Source: Rubrobacter tropicus
Lineage (GTDB): Bacteria; Actinomycetota; Rubrobacteria; Rubrobacterales; Rubrobacteraceae
DNA: 64,000 bases
Direction of reading: 5' to 3'
Assembly: GCF_011492945.1 (NCBI RefSeq)
Contig: NZ_CP045119.1
Span: forward strand, 620,001 to 684,000
Below are positions 25,647 to 35,437 of this stretch, piece by piece. A model generated the notes under the pieces. It did not search any database. It was not told the DNA's origin and was given only the letters and a program-made list of their open reading frames with translations. Position 1 is the first letter of the stretch, and the number at the start of each line of letters is the position of its first letter. Position numbers and translations under genes: made by a program.

Positions 25647-25736
25647 TAGAAGAGCTCCCGAAATCCATCCGCAACGAACCTCGTGGTGGTGAGCGGGGGC
25701 ACACGCATACTGCAAGAAAGCGATGAGGGGGATGGT

Positions 25737-26624
25737 TTGAAGAGCGTGGTCGAGTCGGGCGCGGTAGGGGACAGACAGCTTTTTGGGCGCTACTTTCTCG
25801 CGGTCGTACTCGCACTGGCGATTGGTCTCGGGGTCTCGGTGCCCGCCTTCGCCGCGGAGGGCGAGCCCGAGATCCAGCCCCACATCGTCGGCGGGACAGC
25901 CGTGCCCGACGGCAAGTACAGGTTCATAGCGGCCCTGCGCGACGTGACGAACGGCAGCACGGTCTACCAACAGCAGTTCTGCGGCGCCACCCTTATCGAC
26001 AGTGACAGCGTGCTCACCGCGGCCCACTGCCTGGAAGGGACCACGGCCGCACCGCTGCGGGTTACGGTGGGGATCACCGACCTGAGCAAGCAGCAGGGGC
26101 AGACGCGGTCGGTGGCCGCGATCTTCCGCCACCCGAACTACACCTCGTCGACGGTCAGCTACCGCTACGATGCCGCCGTCCTCAAGCTCAGCAGCCCGGT
26201 CACGGGGATCTCGCCGGTCAAGATACCCGCCACCACCTACAACACCTTCGAAACGCCGGGGCGCCGGGCGACGATCGCCGGCTGGGGCAACACCGTCAAG
26301 CAGCCCCCGAGCGGCGGCGCGGGCAGCAACTACCCTTACAGGATGCGCGAGGCGAAGGTGCCGATAGTCCGTGACGGCGTCGCCAAGGATATCTACGGCT
26401 CGGCCTACGCGACGGGCCTCATGGTCGCCGCGGGCAGGGAGGGCAAGGACACCTGCCAGGGCGACTCCGGCGGCCCGATGTTCGTCTCGACGAGCAGCGG
26501 CCGTTACCAGATCGGCATAACCAGCTTCGGCGCCGGGTGCGGGGCTCAGGGCTTCCCCGGCGTCTACGCCGAGGCCAACTCCGGACCGATCCGCTCCTTC
26601 ATCTACAACGCGGCCAGCCGCTAG
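25737..26624 (+). CDS. Secreted trypsin-like (S1A) serine protease 1
   Basis: The 295-residue preproprotein begins at TTG 25737, behind a purine-rich GAGGGGGATGG. Signal peptide: FGRYFLAVVLALAIGLGVSVPAFAAE. The mature protease starts after IVGGTAVPDGKY, the classical zymogen activation site. Catalytic His is in LTAAHCL, Asp in YDAAVLKL and Ser in CQGDSGGPMF. Cys residues flanking these sites suggest disulfides as in chymotrypsin. It is secreted and would need cleavage before IVGG to be active. A paralogue follows 270 bases downstream; the two share most of their sequence, so this is a tandem duplication. Confidence 0.9.
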   Translation: MKSVVESGAVGDRQLFGRYFLAVVLALAIGLGVSVPAFAAEGEPEIQPHIVGGTAVPDGKYRFIAALRDVTNGSTVYQQQFCGATLIDSDSVLTAAHCLEGTTAAPLRVTVGITDLSKQQGQTRSVAAIFRHPNYTSSTVSYRYDAAVLKLSSPVTGISPVKIPATTYNTFETPGRRATIAGWGNTVKQPPSGGAGSNYPYRMREAKVPIVRDGVAKDIYGSAYATGLMVAAGREGKDTCQGDSGGPMFVSTSSGRYQIGITSFGAGCGAQGFPGVYAEANSGPIRSFIYNAASR

Positions 26625-26644
26625 CCTTACTTCGCCCGATCTTC

Positions 26645-26678
26645 GGGGCCGACGGTTCATTCCGCCGGCCCCGCTTTT
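26645..26678 (+). terminator. Rho-independent terminator, protease 1
   Basis: GGGGCCGACGG (26645-26655) pairs with CCGCCGGCCCC (26662-26672) with one mismatch and is followed by GCTTTTG. It ends the first protease transcript, so the second has its own promoter. Confidence 0.75.
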
Positions 26679-26767
26679 GTCCTCTTTGCAGCCCGTGGGA
26701 GTACGCGAGCGGACCGTCAAGACGTGGTTTCCACCCGGAACTTCCTCTTTCGCCACGGGAGTTTCCT

Positions 26768-26788
26768 GTAGTAAGATGCCGCGCGAAG
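26768..26788 (+). promoter_or_regulatory. Shared promoter block, protease gene 2
   Basis: GTAGTAAGATGCCGCGCGAAG, the counterpart of 25626-25646. It lies 107 bases before the TTG start of the second protease. Confidence 0.5.
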
Positions 26789-26894
26789 AGGGAGACGGTT
26801 CCGCGTTCTATTCGTGGCCGGGCTGGGGCCGGGCTTCTTCGGCGCCCGCTTCGGGGCGCACGCATATCGTTGGAGGGTCGATGAGGAGGTCGGT

Positions 26895-27797
26895 TTGAAG
26901 GTCGGAGGCGGGTCGGACACGGGTAACGCCTTGCGTTACCACACGCGTTATCTGCTGGCGGTGGTGTTCGCGGCGTTGCTGAGCCTCGGGATCGCGGTGC
27001 CCGTGTTCGCCGCCGAGGAAACCACGGGTGGGGGAGATTCCACGACCAACGGTTCCCGAATCGTGGGCGGGACAGCGGTGCCCGACGGCAAGTACAAGTT
27101 CATAGCCGCGCTGCGGGACGTGACCCGGGGTAGCTCCGTCTACCAACAGCAGTTTTGCGGCGCCACCCTGATCGACCGCGACAGCGTGCTCACCGCGGCC
27201 CACTGCGTCCAGGGCACGACCCGCACCCCGCTGCGGGTTACCGTTGGGATCACGGCGCTCAACAAGAAACAGGGACAGACACGGCGGGTGGCCACGATCT
27301 TCCGCCACCCGAAATACTTCCCGAGGCGCAACGAGGCGAACGACGTCGCCGTCCTCAAGTTGAGCAGCCCGGTCAGGAACGTCGCGCCGGTCAAGATCCC
27401 CTCCGTCTCCTTCAACACGTTCGAGCAGCCCGGGCGTACGGCGACCATCGCCGGCTGGGGCAACACGGAGAGGCAGGGGCCGTTCTTCCAGCAGCCCGAC
27501 AACTTCCCGTACCGGATGCGCGAGGCGAAGGTGCCACTGGTCCGCGACGGCGTCGGCAAGCGCGTCTACGGGGACAACTACGTGACGCCCCGCATGGTCG
27601 CCGCGGGCAAGGAGAACAAGGACACCTGCCAGGGCGACTCTGGCGGCCCGATGTTCGTTCCGACGAGCACCGGACGCTACCAGATCGGGATAACCAGCTT
27701 CGGCGCCGGGTGCGGGACTGAGGGTTTCCCCGGCGTCTACACCGAGACGAACGCGGAGGTGATCCGGAACTTCATAGCCACGGCCATGCGCCGGTAG
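26895..27797 (+). CDS. Secreted trypsin-like (S1A) serine protease 2
   Basis: The 300-residue paralogue of the preceding gene starts at TTG 26895 after GAGGAGGTCGGT. The signal peptide (YLLAVVFAALLSLGIAVPVFAAE) is followed by a variable Gly/Thr-rich propeptide and RIVGGTAVPDGKYKF. Catalytic His (LTAAHCV), Asp (NDVAVLKL) and Ser (CQGDSGGPMF) are all present. The Arg before IVGG fits activation by a trypsin-like protease, whereas protease 1 has His at that position. The two may therefore differ in how they are activated. A minimal ORF of six codons (26881-26898) ends in a TGA overlapping the TTG start, as in the paralogue. Confidence 0.9.
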   Translation: MKVGGGSDTGNALRYHTRYLLAVVFAALLSLGIAVPVFAAEETTGGGDSTTNGSRIVGGTAVPDGKYKFIAALRDVTRGSSVYQQQFCGATLIDRDSVLTAAHCVQGTTRTPLRVTVGITALNKKQGQTRRVATIFRHPKYFPRRNEANDVAVLKLSSPVRNVAPVKIPSVSFNTFEQPGRTATIAGWGNTERQGPFFQQPDNFPYRMREAKVPLVRDGVGKRVYGDNYVTPRMVAAGKENKDTCQGDSGGPMFVPTSTGRYQIGITSFGAGCGTEGFPGVYTETNAEVIRNFIATAMRR

Positions 27798-27852: not shown

Positions 27853-30741
27853 CTACTCCGGTCCCCCGTCCGAACCCAGCAACCCGGCCTCGAGCAGGGG
27901 CTCCGGCGTCCCGCCCAGGGGTGCGTCCATGCGCCGGATCCGGCTCTTACCCTCTTCGTCTTCCTCTATGAGCCAGATCTCGTCGACCAGGGCGGATTCC
28001 TGCACCTCGCCGACGTGGGAGATTATGAAGATTTGGCCGAAGGACCGCTTGAGTCTCTCGACCGCAAGCAACACGTTGTTGCGCCTCCCGGCATCCAAAC
28101 TGCCGAACACCTCGTCGAGCACGAGGAACCCTAGAGTGTTCCCCCCGCGCGCCGCGACGAGCCTGGAGAGCGCGACCCTCGCCGAGAGGCTCGCCACGTC
28201 GGCCTCCCCGCCCGAGAACCGCTCGATGGCGTAGGAGTCGTCGAAGCGGTCGAGCAGCCTGACGCGGTAGTTCTCGTCGAACTCCATGCTCTCGTAGCGG
28301 TTGTCCGTGAGCTCCCGTACCAGGCCCGATGCCTCCGCCTCGAGCATCGGCCTCGCCCGCGCGGTCAGGGAGCGGAAGAACTCGGTGAAGAGCCCGTCCA
28401 TCTCGTCCATGCGCGCCGCCGCCGCAGCCCTCTCGTTGGCGAGCTTCCTGTCGTCGTCGAGGCGCTTGAGCTCCGTCTTCGCCCGTTCTATGCGGTGGTC
28501 GGCGTCCTTCCAGTCGCCGCCGAGCCCCTCCCTCGCGTCCCTGAGCCCCGAGACGCGCTCCTCGGACGACGCCACCCTCCCCGCGGCGGCTTCGTACGCC
28601 TCCTCGTCGAAACCGAGGGCTTTGACCTCCTCGCGCAGCTTCTCCGCAGCTTTCCCGGCTTCTTCGACGCGCCCACGCGCTTCTTCGAGCGTCTCTTCGA
28701 CGCCGGCCCGGGTCTCCAGCCGCCGCTCCAGCTCTTCTACCCGGCCGCGGGCCCGTTCGAGGCGGTCTTTCTCGGCGCTCTTCTCCCGGTGCGCTTCGGC
28801 GTCGTAAGAGAGGTCCGAGAGCTCTTCCAGCCTCGCCAACAGCTCCGAGACGCGCCCCGTCAGCCGCGAGTGCTCGGCGGCCAGGGCCGCCACGGCGGGC
28901 CGAGCGTCCCGCACGCCGCGCAGGCGTGCGCGGCGGTCGCGGGCGTCTTGCAGGTCTTCCCGGGTCGGGGGCCGTGTTCCTTCGAGGCTTTCGCGCCGTT
29001 CGGCCAGTTCTTTGTCCAGCCCTTCGAGCGTCGTCAGCCGGTCGGCGGCGCGGTCTTCGGCCCTCACCAGCGATTCGCGCAGGGACCGCCAGCGGTCGGT
29101 CCTCGCCCGCAGTCTCTGGAGCTTCTCCGCGGACTCCTCGGCAGAGCGGGTCAGCTTCTCGGCCTCCGCTGACTCGACGGCGGCCTGGCGACGGAGGGAG
29201 GCGGCCTGCCGCTTGAGGGTGTCGGAGATCTCCTCCTGCTCCCCGCCGTCGAAGCCCCTGTGGCAGGTGGGGCAGTGGTCCTCGGCCCCGCTGTCTATGG
29301 CCTCCCGCGCCCTGTCCACGTTCTTCGCCTCGCGCTCGTGGGCGTTGGCCCGGCCCCGGTGGAGGGCCGCGAGCTCCTTGAGCCTCTCCTCTTCCCCGCG
29401 GAGCTCCTCCTCGCGCCTCTCCGGGTCCTCGCCGCCGGAGAGGTCTTCGAGCTCCTCCCGCAGCCCCCGCGCCTCTTCTTTCGCCTCCTCGTGCCGGGCC
29501 CTGGCCCTCAGCACCTCCTCCTCGGCGGCCCGGTACGCCTCGTGACGGGCGGAGAGGTCGCGCAACTCTTCGTGCCGCGCCTCCGCCTTCTCGAGCTCGC
29601 CCGTTGCCCCGTCCAGAACCGCGACGGCGCGCTGCAGGAGATCCGGGCCGTCAAGCTCGAAGAGGGCGTCGAAGCCGGGGACTACCTCCCCGTCCCCGCC
29701 GTCCAACCCCTCCAGAACGTCCCAGACCTCGCCCTCGATGTCCGAGACGCGCCGCTGCCCCTGCAGGCACTCCCGACGCCCCCTGTCCCGCTCCTCCGCC
29801 AGCCGCCGGTCCTCCTCCAGCTTCTCGAGCTCCGCCGTTACCTCCGGCAACCTGGCCGTCCGGGGCTTCAGGCGACCTAGCTCCTCCTCCGCCGCCGCGA
29901 GGTCGGCAAGGTCCTTCTCCCCCTCGGCGACCCGGTCCGCCGCCCGGCGCCCCTCGGCCTCGGCCGCCCGCAGGTCCGCGGTCAGGCGCGAGTGCTCGCG
30001 GTAAGACGACTCGAGCGCGTCGCGGGCCGCGCGGGCCGACCGGAGTTCTTCTTCGGCCGAGACCAACTCGGTCGAGACCTTCTCCAGCTCGCCCTCCAGG
30101 CGGTCGCAGGCCTCGCGGGCCTCCTTGAGCTCCGCCTGGAAAGATTCCAGGTCTGCCTCGGCGAGCCGTTTCTCGAGGACCCTCGCCTCCGACCTGAGGG
30201 CGTTCCGGTCCTCGCGCAGCAGGGCCTGTGCCGCCTCGACGCCGCCGATGCCCAGGAGTTTGGAGATGCGGCGGACGCGGCTGATGCCGTCGTCGTTGGC
30301 GAAGAAGCGGAGCTCCTTCTGGCGGGCGTAGAAGGTCGCTTCAAAGGCCGTCCGGTCCATCCCGAGCAGCGTCTCCTCGACCCATCGGATCACGTCGGAA
30401 GTCCCGGTGACGATGGTCCGCCCATCGCCGTCGCGCACCTCCGCGCTCGTTGAGCCGCCCTTGAGCTGACGCCTCACCATATACGATCCGCCGTCCGTGG
30501 CGAGCGTAACCTCGACCACGGACGGGTCCTTCGTGGAACCGCCGCTCCACGGGATAGACTCGTTGGCGAACCGCGGCCCGCCGCCCCTCGAACCGAAGAA
30601 AGCCCACAGGATGCTCTCGAAGAGGGTCGATTTGCCGGCGCCATTTGCTCCCACGACCCCGACGGCTCCCTCCGGCGGAAACAGCTCCACCGGGTCCCTG
30701 AGCTGCTTGTAGTTCTGGATAAAGAGGCGTTCCAGGATCAC
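27853..30741 (-). CDS. sbcC: SbcC/Rad50-type ATPase subunit of DNA exonuclease
   Basis: The 962-residue SMC-like protein begins VILERLFIQNYKQLRDPVEL (GTG at 30741, overlapping the sbcD stop by four bases). Walker A is GANGAGKST at about 32-40. Two long heptad-rich coiled coils flank a zinc-hook CPTCHRG at about residue 490. The C-terminal ATPase half has the ABC signature ERFSGGEADVASLSARVALSRL, Walker B LGFLVLDEVFGSLD at about 870 and the His-containing FIISHVGEVQ. With SbcD/Mre11 it tethers and resects DNA ends and opens hairpins. It is the last gene of the nurA-herA-sbcD-sbcC run. Longer in-frame starts would only translate sbcD sequence. Confidence 0.95.
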   Translation of the reverse strand: MILERLFIQNYKQLRDPVELFPPEGAVGVVGANGAGKSTLFESILWAFFGSRGGGPRFANESIPWSGGSTKDPSVVEVTLATDGGSYMVRRQLKGGSTSAEVRDGDGRTIVTGTSDVIRWVEETLLGMDRTAFEATFYARQKELRFFANDDGISRVRRISKLLGIGGVEAAQALLREDRNALRSEARVLEKRLAEADLESFQAELKEAREACDRLEGELEKVSTELVSAEEELRSARAARDALESSYREHSRLTADLRAAEAEGRRAADRVAEGEKDLADLAAAEEELGRLKPRTARLPEVTAELEKLEEDRRLAEERDRGRRECLQGQRRVSDIEGEVWDVLEGLDGGDGEVVPGFDALFELDGPDLLQRAVAVLDGATGELEKAEARHEELRDLSARHEAYRAAEEEVLRARARHEEAKEEARGLREELEDLSGGEDPERREEELRGEEERLKELAALHRGRANAHEREAKNVDRAREAIDSGAEDHCPTCHRGFDGGEQEEISDTLKRQAASLRRQAAVESAEAEKLTRSAEESAEKLQRLRARTDRWRSLRESLVRAEDRAADRLTTLEGLDKELAERRESLEGTRPPTREDLQDARDRRARLRGVRDARPAVAALAAEHSRLTGRVSELLARLEELSDLSYDAEAHREKSAEKDRLERARGRVEELERRLETRAGVEETLEEARGRVEEAGKAAEKLREEVKALGFDEEAYEAAAGRVASSEERVSGLRDAREGLGGDWKDADHRIERAKTELKRLDDDRKLANERAAAAARMDEMDGLFTEFFRSLTARARPMLEAEASGLVRELTDNRYESMEFDENYRVRLLDRFDDSYAIERFSGGEADVASLSARVALSRLVAARGGNTLGFLVLDEVFGSLDAGRRNNVLLAVERLKRSFGQIFIISHVGEVQESALVDEIWLIEEDEEGKSRIRRMDAPLGGTPEPLLEAGLLGSDGGPE

Positions 30742-31895
30742 GCGCCCGGCTCCTCGCTCGCCGCCCGCGTCAGATAACCGCGCCCCTTCTCCAGAAACTC
30801 CTCCGCGAACGCCTTCTCGAGCTCGCCGCGCTCCCGCCTGGAGTTGACGAAATGGGCGAACTCCTCGCCGAGCGGCCCGAAGACCGCCGAAGGCGGGCCG
30901 TCCTCGCCCGCCGCTTCGGGGCTCTCCTCGGGGTGGATCTCCAGACTGAAGTTCAGACAACGCCGCTGCAGGTCCCGCAACAGTTCCCTGTCCACCCCGC
31001 TCGCGACCCCGCGCCTCACGTCGTAGGCCCGCAGCCGCACGATGGCACCGTCGAGGTCAACATCGGAGACCCGCTTCTGAACCTCTTCCGTCAGCTCCGC
31101 CGAGTCCATCTCTTTCGCGGAAATTTTGGGGAGGTCGATCATGGGCCGCGTCTCTATCTCGACGTGCTCCACGCTCTCGAGACCGTTGCCGTCGAACTCG
31201 ACGACGGCGAAGCCGGCCTTCGAATCGACCTCGCCGAACCCGAAGCGCTCGGTGGCGCCGGAGTAGTACGCGTTCTCCTTATGCTTGTGGAAGTCGTGGT
31301 AGTGGCCCAGTGCTATGTAGTCGAAGGGGGCGGAGATCATGCCCGGCTGCAGGTCCGCCTCGCCCATCTCGTGCTGCCTCGTCTCCAGCCCGTGCACCAA
31401 CCCGTGCGTCACCAGGATATTCACGTCCGCGTCCCGCGCCGGCATCACCGCCCCCGTCCCGAACACGGCCCCATGCGGCACCAGCGTGACCCCGACGTTC
31501 ACCCCATCGAACTCGTCCACCCAATAGTCAAGATCGAACCCGTGCGCCGAATGCACGTTCACCAGGTTCGCGTACTCTAGAGCGGCCGTCGTCGTCCGCA
31601 GCCGCGGCGTCTCGTGGTTCCCGGCCGCCACGACGTAGGGGATGCCGGCCCGTGCCGTAATGCGGGCCGTCTGCTTCAGGAAGCCGATGATGACGTGCGT
31701 CGCCGGCCGCACCGAGTCGAAGACGTCGCCCGAGTGAATAACGACGTCCACGTCCCGCTCCAGGATGGCATCCACGGCTCGCCCGTAGGCCTCCTGGACG
31801 TCGACCTCCCGCTGATTGCGGTTGGACTCGGGATCGAGCCGCGCGTACCGCGAGTACCCGAGATGCGTGTCCGAGATGTGGGCGATCTTTACGAT
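30738..31895 (-). CDS. sbcD: SbcD/Mre11-type nuclease subunit, with abnormal start region
   Basis: The metallophosphoesterase core is complete only if translation includes the region upstream of the first in-frame ATG (31775). That region reads IVKIAHISDTHLGYSRYARLDPESNRNQREVD and carries the metal-binding DxH. Further motifs are HSGDVFDS, AAGNHETPR, LVTHGLVHG and GHYHDFH. No ATG, GTG or TTG occurs in frame between the upstream stop and ATG 31775. Family alignment puts the start at or just before the ATC codon at 31895. Starting at 31775 would delete the catalytic Asp/His. Near the front, an out-of-frame GTG/ATG (31924 and 31915) would connect to this frame by one inserted base (MxSRKPDIVKIAH), so a one-base deletion, a frameshift or a non-standard start are all possible. 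It pairs with the downstream SbcC. Confidence 0.85.
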   Translation of the reverse strand: MVKIAHISDTHLGYSRYARLDPESNRNQREVDVQEAYGRAVDAILERDVDVVIHSGDVFDSVRPATHVIIGFLKQTARITARAGIPYVVAAGNHETPRLRTTTAALEYANLVNVHSAHGFDLDYWVDEFDGVNVGVTLVPHGAVFGTGAVMPARDADVNILVTHGLVHGLETRQHEMGEADLQPGMISAPFDYIALGHYHDFHKHKENAYYSGATERFGFGEVDSKAGFAVVEFDGNGLESVEHVEIETRPMIDLPKISAKEMDSAELTEEVQKRVSDVDLDGAIVRLRAYDVRRGVASGVDRELLRDLQRRCLNFSLEIHPEESPEAAGEDGPPSAVFGPLGEEFAHFVNSRRERGELEKAFAEEFLEKGRGYLTRAASEEPGA

Positions 31896-31976
31896 GTCAG
31901 GCTTTCTAGATTCATCGCATGCACACCTAGAATATACTTCGCCTACGACACGCTAACCATCATCATCGTCTTCTTG

Positions 31977-34022
31977 CTAATCACGCATCCGGTCCAGGCC
32001 GGAGAGGATCTGGGACGACTCTCGCCTCCTCGCGGGCCGGTTGTTGCGGGTGAGGTTCCAGCGGAAGTTCTTGTACGGGTCGGCTGCGCCGTGGCCCGTG
32101 CGGTGGGCGGCCTGGACGGCGTCGAGTGCCTCGTAGACCTGCTCTTCGGGGACGCCTTCTATGTCGCCCCTTATAGCCGTGATGGCGGGGGGCTTGCCTG
32201 TCTTTATGAGGCCGCGCATGACGGCGAGGACGGAGGTTGCGGCGTCGCCCTTGCGCTCGCCGAAGATGTCGGTGCCCTGCTTGCCCATCAGGACCATCGG
32301 GCGCGGGAAGGTGCCGAAGACGGGGACCGCGTAGTGGGCGTGGCGCAGGAGGAGGCGGCCCTTTTCTAGCTGGAGGAGCTCCTCGCGGGTCGTGCCGGAG
32401 AAGGAGCGGTAGCTGGAGTTGGTGAGTTCTTCGTCGCCTATGCGACCGTAGAGGCTTGTGGCTGCGTTGCCGACGACCTCGTCGTCTACCTTGGAGCGGA
32501 ACTGCTGGGCGCCGAAGAGGGTGAGGTTCAGGTGGCGCCCACGGGCACTTATGTCCACGAGGGTGTCTTTGAGGCTGCTGGTCTTTGAGCCCGAGGGGGC
32601 GTACTTGTTCAGCTCGTCGACGAAGATGACGAGCTTGTCTACGCCGAGGCGGCCCTGCTCTGCCATCTCCCAGACGCTGTTTATGACCTTGGTAACGACG
32701 AGGTCCTGGGGGACGCCGGAGAGGTGCGAGATGTCGACGACGCGCATCTCCCGATCCTGGAAGGGGCCGTCGACCTGCGGGGAGTCGCCGTACTCGACCC
32801 GGCCGTGGACGAGGAGGCCCGCGCACTTGCTCGGGAGGACCCCGAAGCGGTTGCGGACCTTGGCTATGGTGGCCTGGTGGTGGCCGTTCCAGTAGGAGCT
32901 GTCGCTCTCCTCGAAGTACTCGAAGGCCTCATCTAGCTGCGAGTGGAAGCCGCGCATGGTACGGACGGGGACGGACCTGAGGTACTCGACGAAGCCCTTG
33001 AACTTGTCGTCGTAGTCGGTCGGGTCGAAGATGCGGCCGGCGTGGGGGAGGACGTCTTCGAGGTCCCACACGATGGGGTGGACGCAGGTGTCCTCGCCGC
33101 GGGCGTTGCGCAGGGTGTTCAGGTCCTTGGTGCGGAGGTCGGCGGCATGAACCATACCGTCGCCGCCGTCCTTGCCGAAGGCGAGCGGGGCGAAGATGCG
33201 GAGGTTCTCGAAGGGCTTTATTTCGAGGCCCAGAGACTCGTACATCTCGCGGTCCTCGGGGGGGAGGCCCTTCTGGTTCGCCTTCTTGTAACGCTCGGCG
33301 AGTTCGGGGTCCTTTTCGGAGTCTACTTCGACGGGCTTGTCCAGGAAGAGGAGGTCGGCGCCTTTTACGTTGAACATGAGGGCGGCGACTTTCTTGTCTT
33401 TTACGGTCTGGAAGGTGCTCGCGATGGTGAAGAGGGCGTGGCTGGTCTTGGTGGAGAGGCCGCTCATGCCGGTTATGTTGAGGTGGCCCGCTTCGGGGCC
33501 GAGGAGGTAGTCGCCGTCGACGAAGAGGGGGGTGCGCTGGGGGGAGCCGTCCTTCTCGTTGCCGTTCTCGTGGAGTAGCATCGGTATTTTGTGCCCCGCG
33601 AAGTCGTCCGTGCCGAGCGCGTACTCTATGGCCGCGCTCGTGGCGAAGAAGACGGGGCCCGTGCGGACGGGTCGCTTTGACTTCTTCTTCTCGTGGCGGT
33701 GCTTGGTGGCGAGGACGCGGGCTTTGAAGACCAGTATCTCGACGCGCTCGGAGAGGGCTTCGAGGGCCGGATCTCCGTCGTAGGCGTAGAAGTCGTCCAG
33801 GAAAGACTGGAGGTCCGAGTATCTTCTCGGATCGTCCAGGACGGCGACGGCGGTCGCGTCTTCAGCTTCGGCGGCTACGATGTGGCCGATGTCCAGGTTC
33901 TGGGCGGCTTCGGTCTCTGCGGTCCAGAAGAAGAACTCGTGGGCGGTTGCGGGGCTGTCCTCGCTCGTCACGACGCGGCCTATGGGGCCGAGTTCTTTAT
34001 CCAGGAAATGGTCGTGAAGCAT
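31977..34022 (-). CDS. herA: HerA/DUF87-type DNA translocase ATPase
   Basis: The 681-residue protein has an N-terminal HAS-barrel-like beta domain (about 1-150: MLHDHFLDKELGPIGRVVTSED...). A RecA/FtsK-like ATPase follows. The P-loop is unusual: ITGMSGLSTKTSHAL at about 180-195, in place of the usual GxTGxGKS. Walker B is LVIFVDELNKYAP near 465, and further motifs are DISARGRHLNLTLFGAQQF and NAATSLYGRIGDEEL. HerA hexamers pump DNA and activate NurA nuclease. The start touches the end of the nurA-like gene without a gap, and sbcD-sbcC follow. Together they form the end-resection set described in archaea. Confidence 0.85.
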   Translation of the reverse strand: MLHDHFLDKELGPIGRVVTSEDSPATAHEFFFWTAETEAAQNLDIGHIVAAEAEDATAVAVLDDPRRYSDLQSFLDDFYAYDGDPALEALSERVEILVFKARVLATKHRHEKKKSKRPVRTGPVFFATSAAIEYALGTDDFAGHKIPMLLHENGNEKDGSPQRTPLFVDGDYLLGPEAGHLNITGMSGLSTKTSHALFTIASTFQTVKDKKVAALMFNVKGADLLFLDKPVEVDSEKDPELAERYKKANQKGLPPEDREMYESLGLEIKPFENLRIFAPLAFGKDGGDGMVHAADLRTKDLNTLRNARGEDTCVHPIVWDLEDVLPHAGRIFDPTDYDDKFKGFVEYLRSVPVRTMRGFHSQLDEAFEYFEESDSSYWNGHHQATIAKVRNRFGVLPSKCAGLLVHGRVEYGDSPQVDGPFQDREMRVVDISHLSGVPQDLVVTKVINSVWEMAEQGRLGVDKLVIFVDELNKYAPSGSKTSSLKDTLVDISARGRHLNLTLFGAQQFRSKVDDEVVGNAATSLYGRIGDEELTNSSYRSFSGTTREELLQLEKGRLLLRHAHYAVPVFGTFPRPMVLMGKQGTDIFGERKGDAATSVLAVMRGLIKTGKPPAITAIRGDIEGVPEEQVYEALDAVQAAHRTGHGAADPYKNFRWNLTRNNRPARRRESSQILSGLDRMRD

Positions 34023-35168
34023 CTAGCTCCCTCCGTTGAGTGCGAGTTGGCGTTCGAGTTTCGAGTAGGACCGCTCCGAGCTCTGTACCAGGGGCTTCAG
34101 GATCTTCTCGACGTAGTGGATCGGGTAGATCATGGCGGGCCACCTCGGGTCCGGCTTCGCCAGCGGCGCCCGCTCGGCGATGACCCAGCGGCTGATCTCG
34201 TCCACGGTCTCGGGCTTCGTGTCCCTGGGCGCCTCGATCCTCATCAACGAACCCAACGCGTCGGCGCCCTGCTGGGGCGGCCACATTCTCAAGTACCAGG
34301 AGGTGCGCCGCTCGCTGAGGTCTCGCCGGAGCTGCCAGTCTGGGACGAAGCTCGTCGTCCTCATGCCTGGCTCCAGGTCGAGCAGCATCGCGACGTCCCT
34401 GCCGACGAACTCGGGGCGGGCGACGCTCTTTATGAGGCCGACGGCGCGCCGGTTGGACTCCCTGATATCCCTGAGCTGGCCGTCCACCGCGATCCAGGCC
34501 TCCGAATCCGCGAGCGTCCTATCGTCGAGCTCCCACCGGCGCAGCATCTCGCCCTCCAGCCGCTCCCTGAGCGTGCGCACCCGCGAGCGGGCCATCTCGC
34601 GCATCCCGACGTAGTCCGAGGGGTCCGCGCCGGGCACGTACGCCGCCGAGTCTACGACCAGGTGCGGGGAAGAGGGGACGTCCTCGACCCCGAACTCGGA
34701 GAAGCCGGCCCCGATGAGCAGGTCCCAGAACGCCCCGACCTTCTCGTCGCCGGCGCTGCGGGGCAGGATCACGGCCTGCACGACCGTCGGCGGGTCCTCG
34801 AGCGGCATCCGGGAGAACCGCCTGTCGCAGCGGTTGACGATAGCGGCGGCCACCGTTGCAACGATCACGGGCGACATCTCTATGCGCCCGATCTCCCTTG
34901 AGCTCTGGACACCGTCGAGAAAGTAACAGAGCCGCGAGGTGCCGTCGGACCGGCCGATGTCCCGCGGCCCCGGTGGCTCCTCCAGGTGGAAAGGACGCCC
35001 CGGCGGTGCCCCGTCTTCCTCGTCCTCGACCGGACGGTGGGCGAACTGCTGGCCCTCCAGGTGAACGGTCCCGGCACCCGCGGTTACATGGATGCCCTTT
35101 CGCCCGGCGTCGTCCAATGCCTGGCTTATCTTCGTAACGAAATCTTTAGAAGCGCTCCCCGCCAGCAT
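34023..35168 (-). CDS. nurA: NurA-domain 5'-3' nuclease (probable)
   Basis: The 381-residue protein contains LCYFLDGVQSSREIG at about 80-95, in which the Asp fits the first catalytic acid of NurA domains (FVDG-like). The second motif is EAWIAVDGQLRDI near 228-240. The C-terminus has WPAMIYPIHYVEKILKPLV, as in NurA proteins, where a late His/Asp completes the site. Overall similarity to archaeal NurA is low by eye, so the call leans on motif order and on its position directly upstream of and abutting herA. NurA resects DNA 5'-3' as a dimer bound to the HerA hexamer. It is the first gene of the four-gene run; a 270-base gap separates it from the divergent gene at 35438. Confidence 0.72.
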   Translation of the reverse strand: MLAGSASKDFVTKISQALDDAGRKGIHVTAGAGTVHLEGQQFAHRPVEDEEDGAPPGRPFHLEEPPGPRDIGRSDGTSRLCYFLDGVQSSREIGRIEMSPVIVATVAAAIVNRCDRRFSRMPLEDPPTVVQAVILPRSAGDEKVGAFWDLLIGAGFSEFGVEDVPSSPHLVVDSAAYVPGADPSDYVGMREMARSRVRTLRERLEGEMLRRWELDDRTLADSEAWIAVDGQLRDIRESNRRAVGLIKSVARPEFVGRDVAMLLDLEPGMRTTSFVPDWQLRRDLSERRTSWYLRMWPPQQGADALGSLMRIEAPRDTKPETVDEISRWVIAERAPLAKPDPRWPAMIYPIHYVEKILKPLVQSSERSYSKLERQLALNGGS

Positions 35169-35437
35169 GGCCGGAAGTATACGCGCGACGCCAGCCGAAG
35201 ACTAACCGCCTAACCCTGAGCCTCGTTATCAGGTTCATACACCGACGTACCGAACCGCCCCGCCGCCGTCACCGCTTCGGTTTCCTCCGTCGAGCGGGAA
35301 CCACCAGGCCCCCGCTTTGTAGGGCGTCCGTGCGACCAAAGTCCCGCATAGATTTGGGTCCTCTGGCCGGTTCGCCCTCTCCCCGTCGCCGTTACAGTCG
35401 TGGTGTAAGGAGATCCGTCCAGCGAAAGGAGAAAACC

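Follow-up and report, generated by a model that had tools for sequence, protein, structure and literature searches.

How is translation of sbcD begun in Rubrobacter tropicus, where this Mre11-type nuclease gene has no ordinary start codon ahead of its catalytic motif I, and what kind of repair gene set does it belong to? The gene lies in a stretch of 64,000 nucleotides (nt), hereafter the window, that covers positions 620,001-684,000 of the forward strand of NZ_CP045119.1 (GCF_011492945.1; family Rubrobacteraceae). Four consecutive genes of the window, nurA, herA, sbcD (Mre11) and sbcC (Rad50), all lie on the minus strand, and in a large clade of the family AUA or AUC is conserved where the start of sbcD would be expected. 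Their identities and order were given correctly by an earlier sequence-only reading, although its coordinates, 30738-35168, omit sbcC (27853-30741). Taken together, the data make it likely that this is a bacterial HerA-NurA plus SbcCD set, composed of two tandem units, in which a non-canonical AUC or AUA start of sbcD would limit the amount of SbcCD.

The linkage of the four genes was examined in relatives. In a sample of 39 Rubrobacteraceae genomes, 35 of them with sbcD, the order nurA-herA-sbcD-sbcC on one strand recurs wherever contigs span the region, and nurA adjoins herA in the relatives that carry both on one contig; because order and strand recur, the linkage proposed by the sequence-only reading is retained and is not due to chance. 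The interval between herA and sbcD, which is 81 bp in the window when counted to the inferred ATC start, ranges from about 20 to 3500 bp in relatives, and its contents differ by species, with unrelated genes in most. By eye, with no family-library search, these genes include PIN/RelE/DUF433-like toxin-antitoxin pairs and ASCH-like, RelA/SpoT-like and lipoate-ligase-like genes. The interval (L021-L039) is also a turnover hotspot, with changing small genes between constant flanking genes. Most relatives have a TAGAAT/TACAAT-like putative -10 box tens of bases ahead of sbcD. Likewise, a TATACT stretch before the nurA ATG, read as RIL in the nurA frame, is kept in most of them, and nurA is probably transcribed as a leaderless mRNA (35166-35181 region: TATACT, 7 nt, ATG). 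Given the variable gap and the separate -10-like box at most sbcD genes, the locus looks like two tandem transcription units with putative promoters, nurA-herA and sbcD-sbcC, that are kept together.

The sequence-only reading took the four genes instead for a single operon marking a radiation- or desiccation-tolerant lifestyle. Consistent with this are the four consecutive same-strand genes and the 81-bp gap of the window, and also the adjacent sbcD and sbcC genes of R. radiotolerans, a radiation-resistant Rubrobacter (PMC4148983). A single operon is nonetheless hard to reconcile with relatives in which unrelated genes separate herA from sbcD by as much as 3.5 kb and with -10-like boxes preceding sbcD, while similar clusters in other families of the phylum count against a lifestyle marker, and we consider this view unlikely. 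What stands of the "one block" is the consecutive arrangement on one strand; the intervening genes in relatives and the boxes at sbcD and nurA are better read as two units. The set was also said to be uncommon in a bacterium, which is overstated within the phylum. Linkage of herA and sbcD is widespread there, since, of 25 HerA loci sampled in other families, 20 are followed by sbcD at a distance of no more than about 1.5 kb, and nurA occurs in three inspected clusters, in one of them weakly: two loci from other actinobacterial families have the order herA-sbcD-sbcC-nurA, and in a third, from another family, a weak nurA-like frame precedes herA-sbcD-sbcC. The proposed tie of the gene set to radiation or desiccation tolerance is not specific. 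The archaeal herA-mre11-rad50-nurA cluster links the same four functions (PMC2288612), whereas here nurA-herA comes first and sbcD-sbcC follows after a variable gap.

In the window, the sole canonical start (ATG, GTG or TTG) that the sbcD frame offers, a GTG at 31775, lies past the catalytic SDTHLG; from the in-frame stop upstream as far as motif I, DTHLG, no such codon is present. A frame drawn from canonical starts (30738-31775) lacks the first 40 residues, catalytic motif I among them, and SDTHLG is included only if translation begins upstream of 31775. Of the 36 sbcD genes compared in the family, 27 have no ATG, GTG or TTG before motif I; the first canonical codon downstream falls at inconsistent positions, mostly 28, 38 or 46 codons in (range 1 to 65), and in most genes past the catalytic DTH. 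A sequencing error behind the missing start is ruled out by recurrence of the feature in many species. The starts of nurA, herA and sbcC, used as a control, were canonical in 58 of 58 cases. In 19 of the 20 HerA loci with sbcD from other families, the (R/K)(I/L/F)LH motif of the gene comes right after an ATG or GTG. A survey of starts in the R. tropicus genome covered 464 kb and 392 genes, and a blind coding-potential scan placed sbcD third of the 392 by coding signal ahead of the first canonical start, with its beginning within one codon of ATC; the other top cases, judged by eye, resembled frameshifts, noise or a CTG start. As a feature of the sequence, the non-canonical sbcD start is well supported. 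No published account of a noncanonical start codon for sbcD turned up when the literature was searched for the two together.

To compare genes, we used as an anchor the codon two before the conserved Lys/Arg of SbcD. Over the 36 genes this codon is ATA in 18, CTG in 6, ATC in 5, AGC in 3, GCG in 2, and TTG and GTG in 1 each, and every one of the AGC genes has CTG or TTG directly before it. One clade of 22 genes (100/100 support) has ATA in 17 and ATC in 5, never ATG, with AUC scattered inside the clade (5 changes on the tree). Upstream of the anchor the alignment carries about 1 bit of information per position or less, and at the first two bases of this codon the value jumps to 2 bits. A stop codon directly precedes the anchor in two genes (TAG ATC, TAA ATC), and AGGAGG or GGAGG lies 6 nt upstream of it in eight. 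The preference for ATA is weak evidence by itself, since ATA is also preferred (13/22) at an internal Ile codon close by. Two genomes carry two sbcD copies each (G043, L131/L094; G053, L124/L085), one ATA and one ATC in G053, which may reflect mixed bins. From these observations we infer that sbcD translation begins at AUC, or at AUA in most relatives, and that the codon would be read by the ordinary CAU initiator tRNA. The initiator-type tRNAs of the R. tropicus genome are two identical ordinary CAU genes; no special initiator tRNA with an isoleucine anticodon was found there, nearly all tRNA matches having been typed by ARAGORN.

Some observations weigh against this start and against the joint reading that includes it. 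The Shine-Dalgarno match of the window's own sbcD is weak (GAAAG), Shine-Dalgarno spacing in the genome is too broad to choose between codons, and GCG at the anchor in G016 and G045 is hard to explain. The sbcD sequences are related rather than independent, and the Fisher value for the start-codon contrast overstates its significance. The NurA and HerA calls rest on a fold and one PDB relative, as Pfam finds neither. The codon after AUA/AUC is GTN in 30 of the 36 genes, and this position corresponds in the alignment to the place where sbcD of other families has its GTG/ATG start; in G012 and G024 it is a GTG that could itself be the start. The same position is the basis of an alternative in which sbcD starts one codon later, at GTA, GTC or GTT, and AUA/AUC is untranslated. 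Streptomyces sigR, with GTC, is a precedent (PMC5472188), and in infC of the family a GTA is invariant about as far from the Shine-Dalgarno of that gene. Yet the position also holds ATC, ATT, CTC and GCC, with third bases free as in an ordinary second codon, while the codon before it is ATA or ATC in 22 of 22 genes of the main clade. The GCC directly follows ATA in G054; it would be a poor start, which makes ATA the plausible one there. Because the GTN codon varies too freely, GCC included, AUA/AUC is preferred and a start at GTN seems improbable. With either codon, the start of sbcD is non-canonical in most of the family.

In a second alternative, synthesis of SbcD depends on a short frame upstream, through programmed frameshifting or through termination and reinitiation, so that AUA/AUC is not chosen independently by an initiating ribosome. 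The window has an ATG...TAA frame that overlaps the sbcD start, and in a few relatives ATG-AGA-TAG or ATG-TAG occurs immediately before that start. Most relatives, however, lack such a frame or have another one, while AUA/AUC and a Shine-Dalgarno-like purine run persist, and we regard this route as very unlikely. A start at the downstream GTG or TTG, giving a shorter protein without IAHISDTHLGYSR, can be dismissed almost entirely: in its favour, the frame has no other canonical start, and the GTG of G012 and G024 is just one codon away, so that motif I is kept, but elsewhere its position varies among species (1 to 65 codons in), the DTH metal ligands are lost in most, and the bases upstream of it are almost invariant, with the third-position variation typical of coding sequence.

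Translation initiation factor 3 (IF3) represses initiation at codons other than AUG, GUG and UUG, a property exploited by infC, which starts with AUU in E. coli and AUC in Streptomyces, and by Streptomyces sigR; for sigR (GTC) the repression has been demonstrated, and a canonical start in its place deregulates the system (PMC5472188). The sbcD genes resemble these in having a conserved start outside AUG/GUG/UUG and no canonical one (27 of 36 genes; AUA/AUC in 22 of 22 of the clade), and differ in that sbcD encodes a repair nuclease and mainly uses AUA; IF3 control is proposed here by analogy. On that analogy, IF3 would disfavour the AUC/AUA start and hold SbcD low. The sbcC gene starts with a GTG inside the sbcD stop (GTGA), so that translational coupling is probable and SbcC would probably be held low as well. 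This one weak start would then determine how much of the complete SbcCD complex is made and would prevent high levels of a nuclease that could do harm; under relaxed discrimination by IF3 those levels would possibly go up. Harm from too much SbcCD is what one would generally expect of a nuclease. Whether Mre11-Rad50 is under translational control through the clade-wide AUA/AUC start, so that its amount follows IF3 activity and, through it, the state of growth or stress, appears evenly balanced to us. To our knowledge, few bacterial genes with starts other than AUG, GUG or UUG are documented. The gene set itself is of a known kind in a conserved bacterial setting, and the sbcD start, if it is regulatory, would be a new variant of a known device.

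The infC gene of Rubrobacteraceae (L062-L070, L074-L078) is also without a nearby ATG, GTG or TTG. After AGGAG it has an in-frame TGY-NNA-GTA-GCN, in which GTA is invariant, and its start may be GUA, unlike the ATA/ATC/ATT-type infC codons seen in several other families. Another gene, for a dppB-like permease (G000:C1:883942-884967; L116-L117), has an apparent CTG start after GGAGGA.

The identities of NurA and HerA were examined by structure and by sequence comparison. Neither has a match in Pfam, NurA has none in NCBIfam, and for the two proteins Pfam, NCBIfam and PADLOC together gave nothing useful beyond a weak mad8 match. The predicted NurA structure (AlphaFold2; predicted local distance difference test score 79, predicted template modelling score 0.81) has the RNase-H-like NurA fold: in VIA-align, its best solved match is Deinococcus radiodurans NurA (7f6d_G; Z 18.0, over 284 residues), followed by TM1739 (17.3) and the NurA proteins of S. 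solfataricus (14.1) and P. furiosus (12.2), and other RNase-H folds (Argonaute/EndoV) score lower, at about 9-10. A call that had been based on two motifs is thus backed by the fold, with Z of 12-18 to bacterial and archaeal NurA structures. A profile from 20 family sequences gave marginal matches only (D. radiodurans NurA, E 0.0085; TM1739, E 0.021). Residues D85-G86, D229-G230 and D323-E324 are invariant among the 20, and the acidic ones may belong to the active site. HerA is, by sequence, of the Deinococcus type, matching D. radiodurans HerA (7f6d_B) at E 1.2e-34 (phmmer). Its Walker A GMSGLSTKTS aligns with GISGVATKTS (K and T matched) and its Walker B VDELNKYAP with LDELNKYAP (DE matched), identical at the Walker residues K175/T176 and D487/E488 of D. 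radiodurans HerA (PMC9960219), which has 618 residues as against 681 here. In D. radiodurans, nurA and herA are treated as one operon (PMC9960219), which resembles the pair here; in contrast, NurA identity is only about 16%, and the pair here adjoins sbcD-sbcC. SbcD is matched by Pfam Metallophos (1.2e-8) and NCBIfam Mre11_Halo (1.6e-21) and sbcd (5.6e-15), and SbcC by NCBIfam Rad50 (1.3e-49) and Pfam AAA_23 (1e-14) and Rad50_zn_hook (5.6e-4), with CPTC in its sequence. The junctions are as had been described: the nurA stop TAG is followed on the next base (34022) by the herA ATG, and sbcD, ending at 30738, shares GTGA with sbcC, whose GTG runs from 30741.

Features of the nurA-herA-sbcD-sbcC locus, in positions of the window
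Feature	Position	Strand	Description
nurA	34023..35168	(-)	RNase-H-like nuclease, 381 aa
herA	31977..34022	(-)	DNA translocase, HerA/FtsK type, Deinococcus type, 681 aa
sbcD (Mre11)	30738..31895	(-)	Metallophosphoesterase-type nuclease; motif I DTHLG directly after the inferred start
sbcC (Rad50)	27853..30741	(-)	ABC ATPase, coiled coil, zinc hook CPTC; begins at a GTG overlapping the sbcD stop
Putative -10 box TATACT	35176..35181	(-)	From sequence; 7 nt before the nurA ATG
Putative -10 box TATATT	31931..31936	(-)	From sequence; for a separate sbcD-sbcC transcript
Short ATG...TAA frame	31889..31915	(-)	From sequence; overlaps sbcD start; most relatives lack it or have a different one
Inferred sbcD start codon ATC	31893..31895	(-)	No canonical start before motif I; conservation begins here

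Just downstream of sbcC, at 25683-27797 (+), are two similar tandem genes for trypsin-like serine proteases.

The wider repertoire for end resection was also surveyed. The RecB/AddB nuclease domain PDDEXK_1 was found in none of 9 genomes of the window's genus, and is present in 16 of 16 outgroup genomes and in some other Rubrobacteraceae; a recB model matched the R. tropicus genome below the cut-off only. With no detectable RecB/AddB-type nuclease in the genus, a larger share of end processing would fall to HerA-NurA and SbcCD, and together these may be the main means of end resection there. Ends that are blocked or folded into hairpins would first be clipped by SbcCD; HerA, as a hexamer, and NurA, as a dimer, would next pump the DNA and resect it, which would leave a 3' tail for RecA. 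The genus would offer a bacterial setting in which to study archaeal-type end resection. For annotation, prediction limited to AUG, GUG and UUG would trim SbcD by tens of residues, metal-binding motif included, in many such genomes. If the conserved AUA/AUC start of sbcD is true, the dosage of a break-repair nuclease in these bacteria would be tied to the fidelity of translation initiation.

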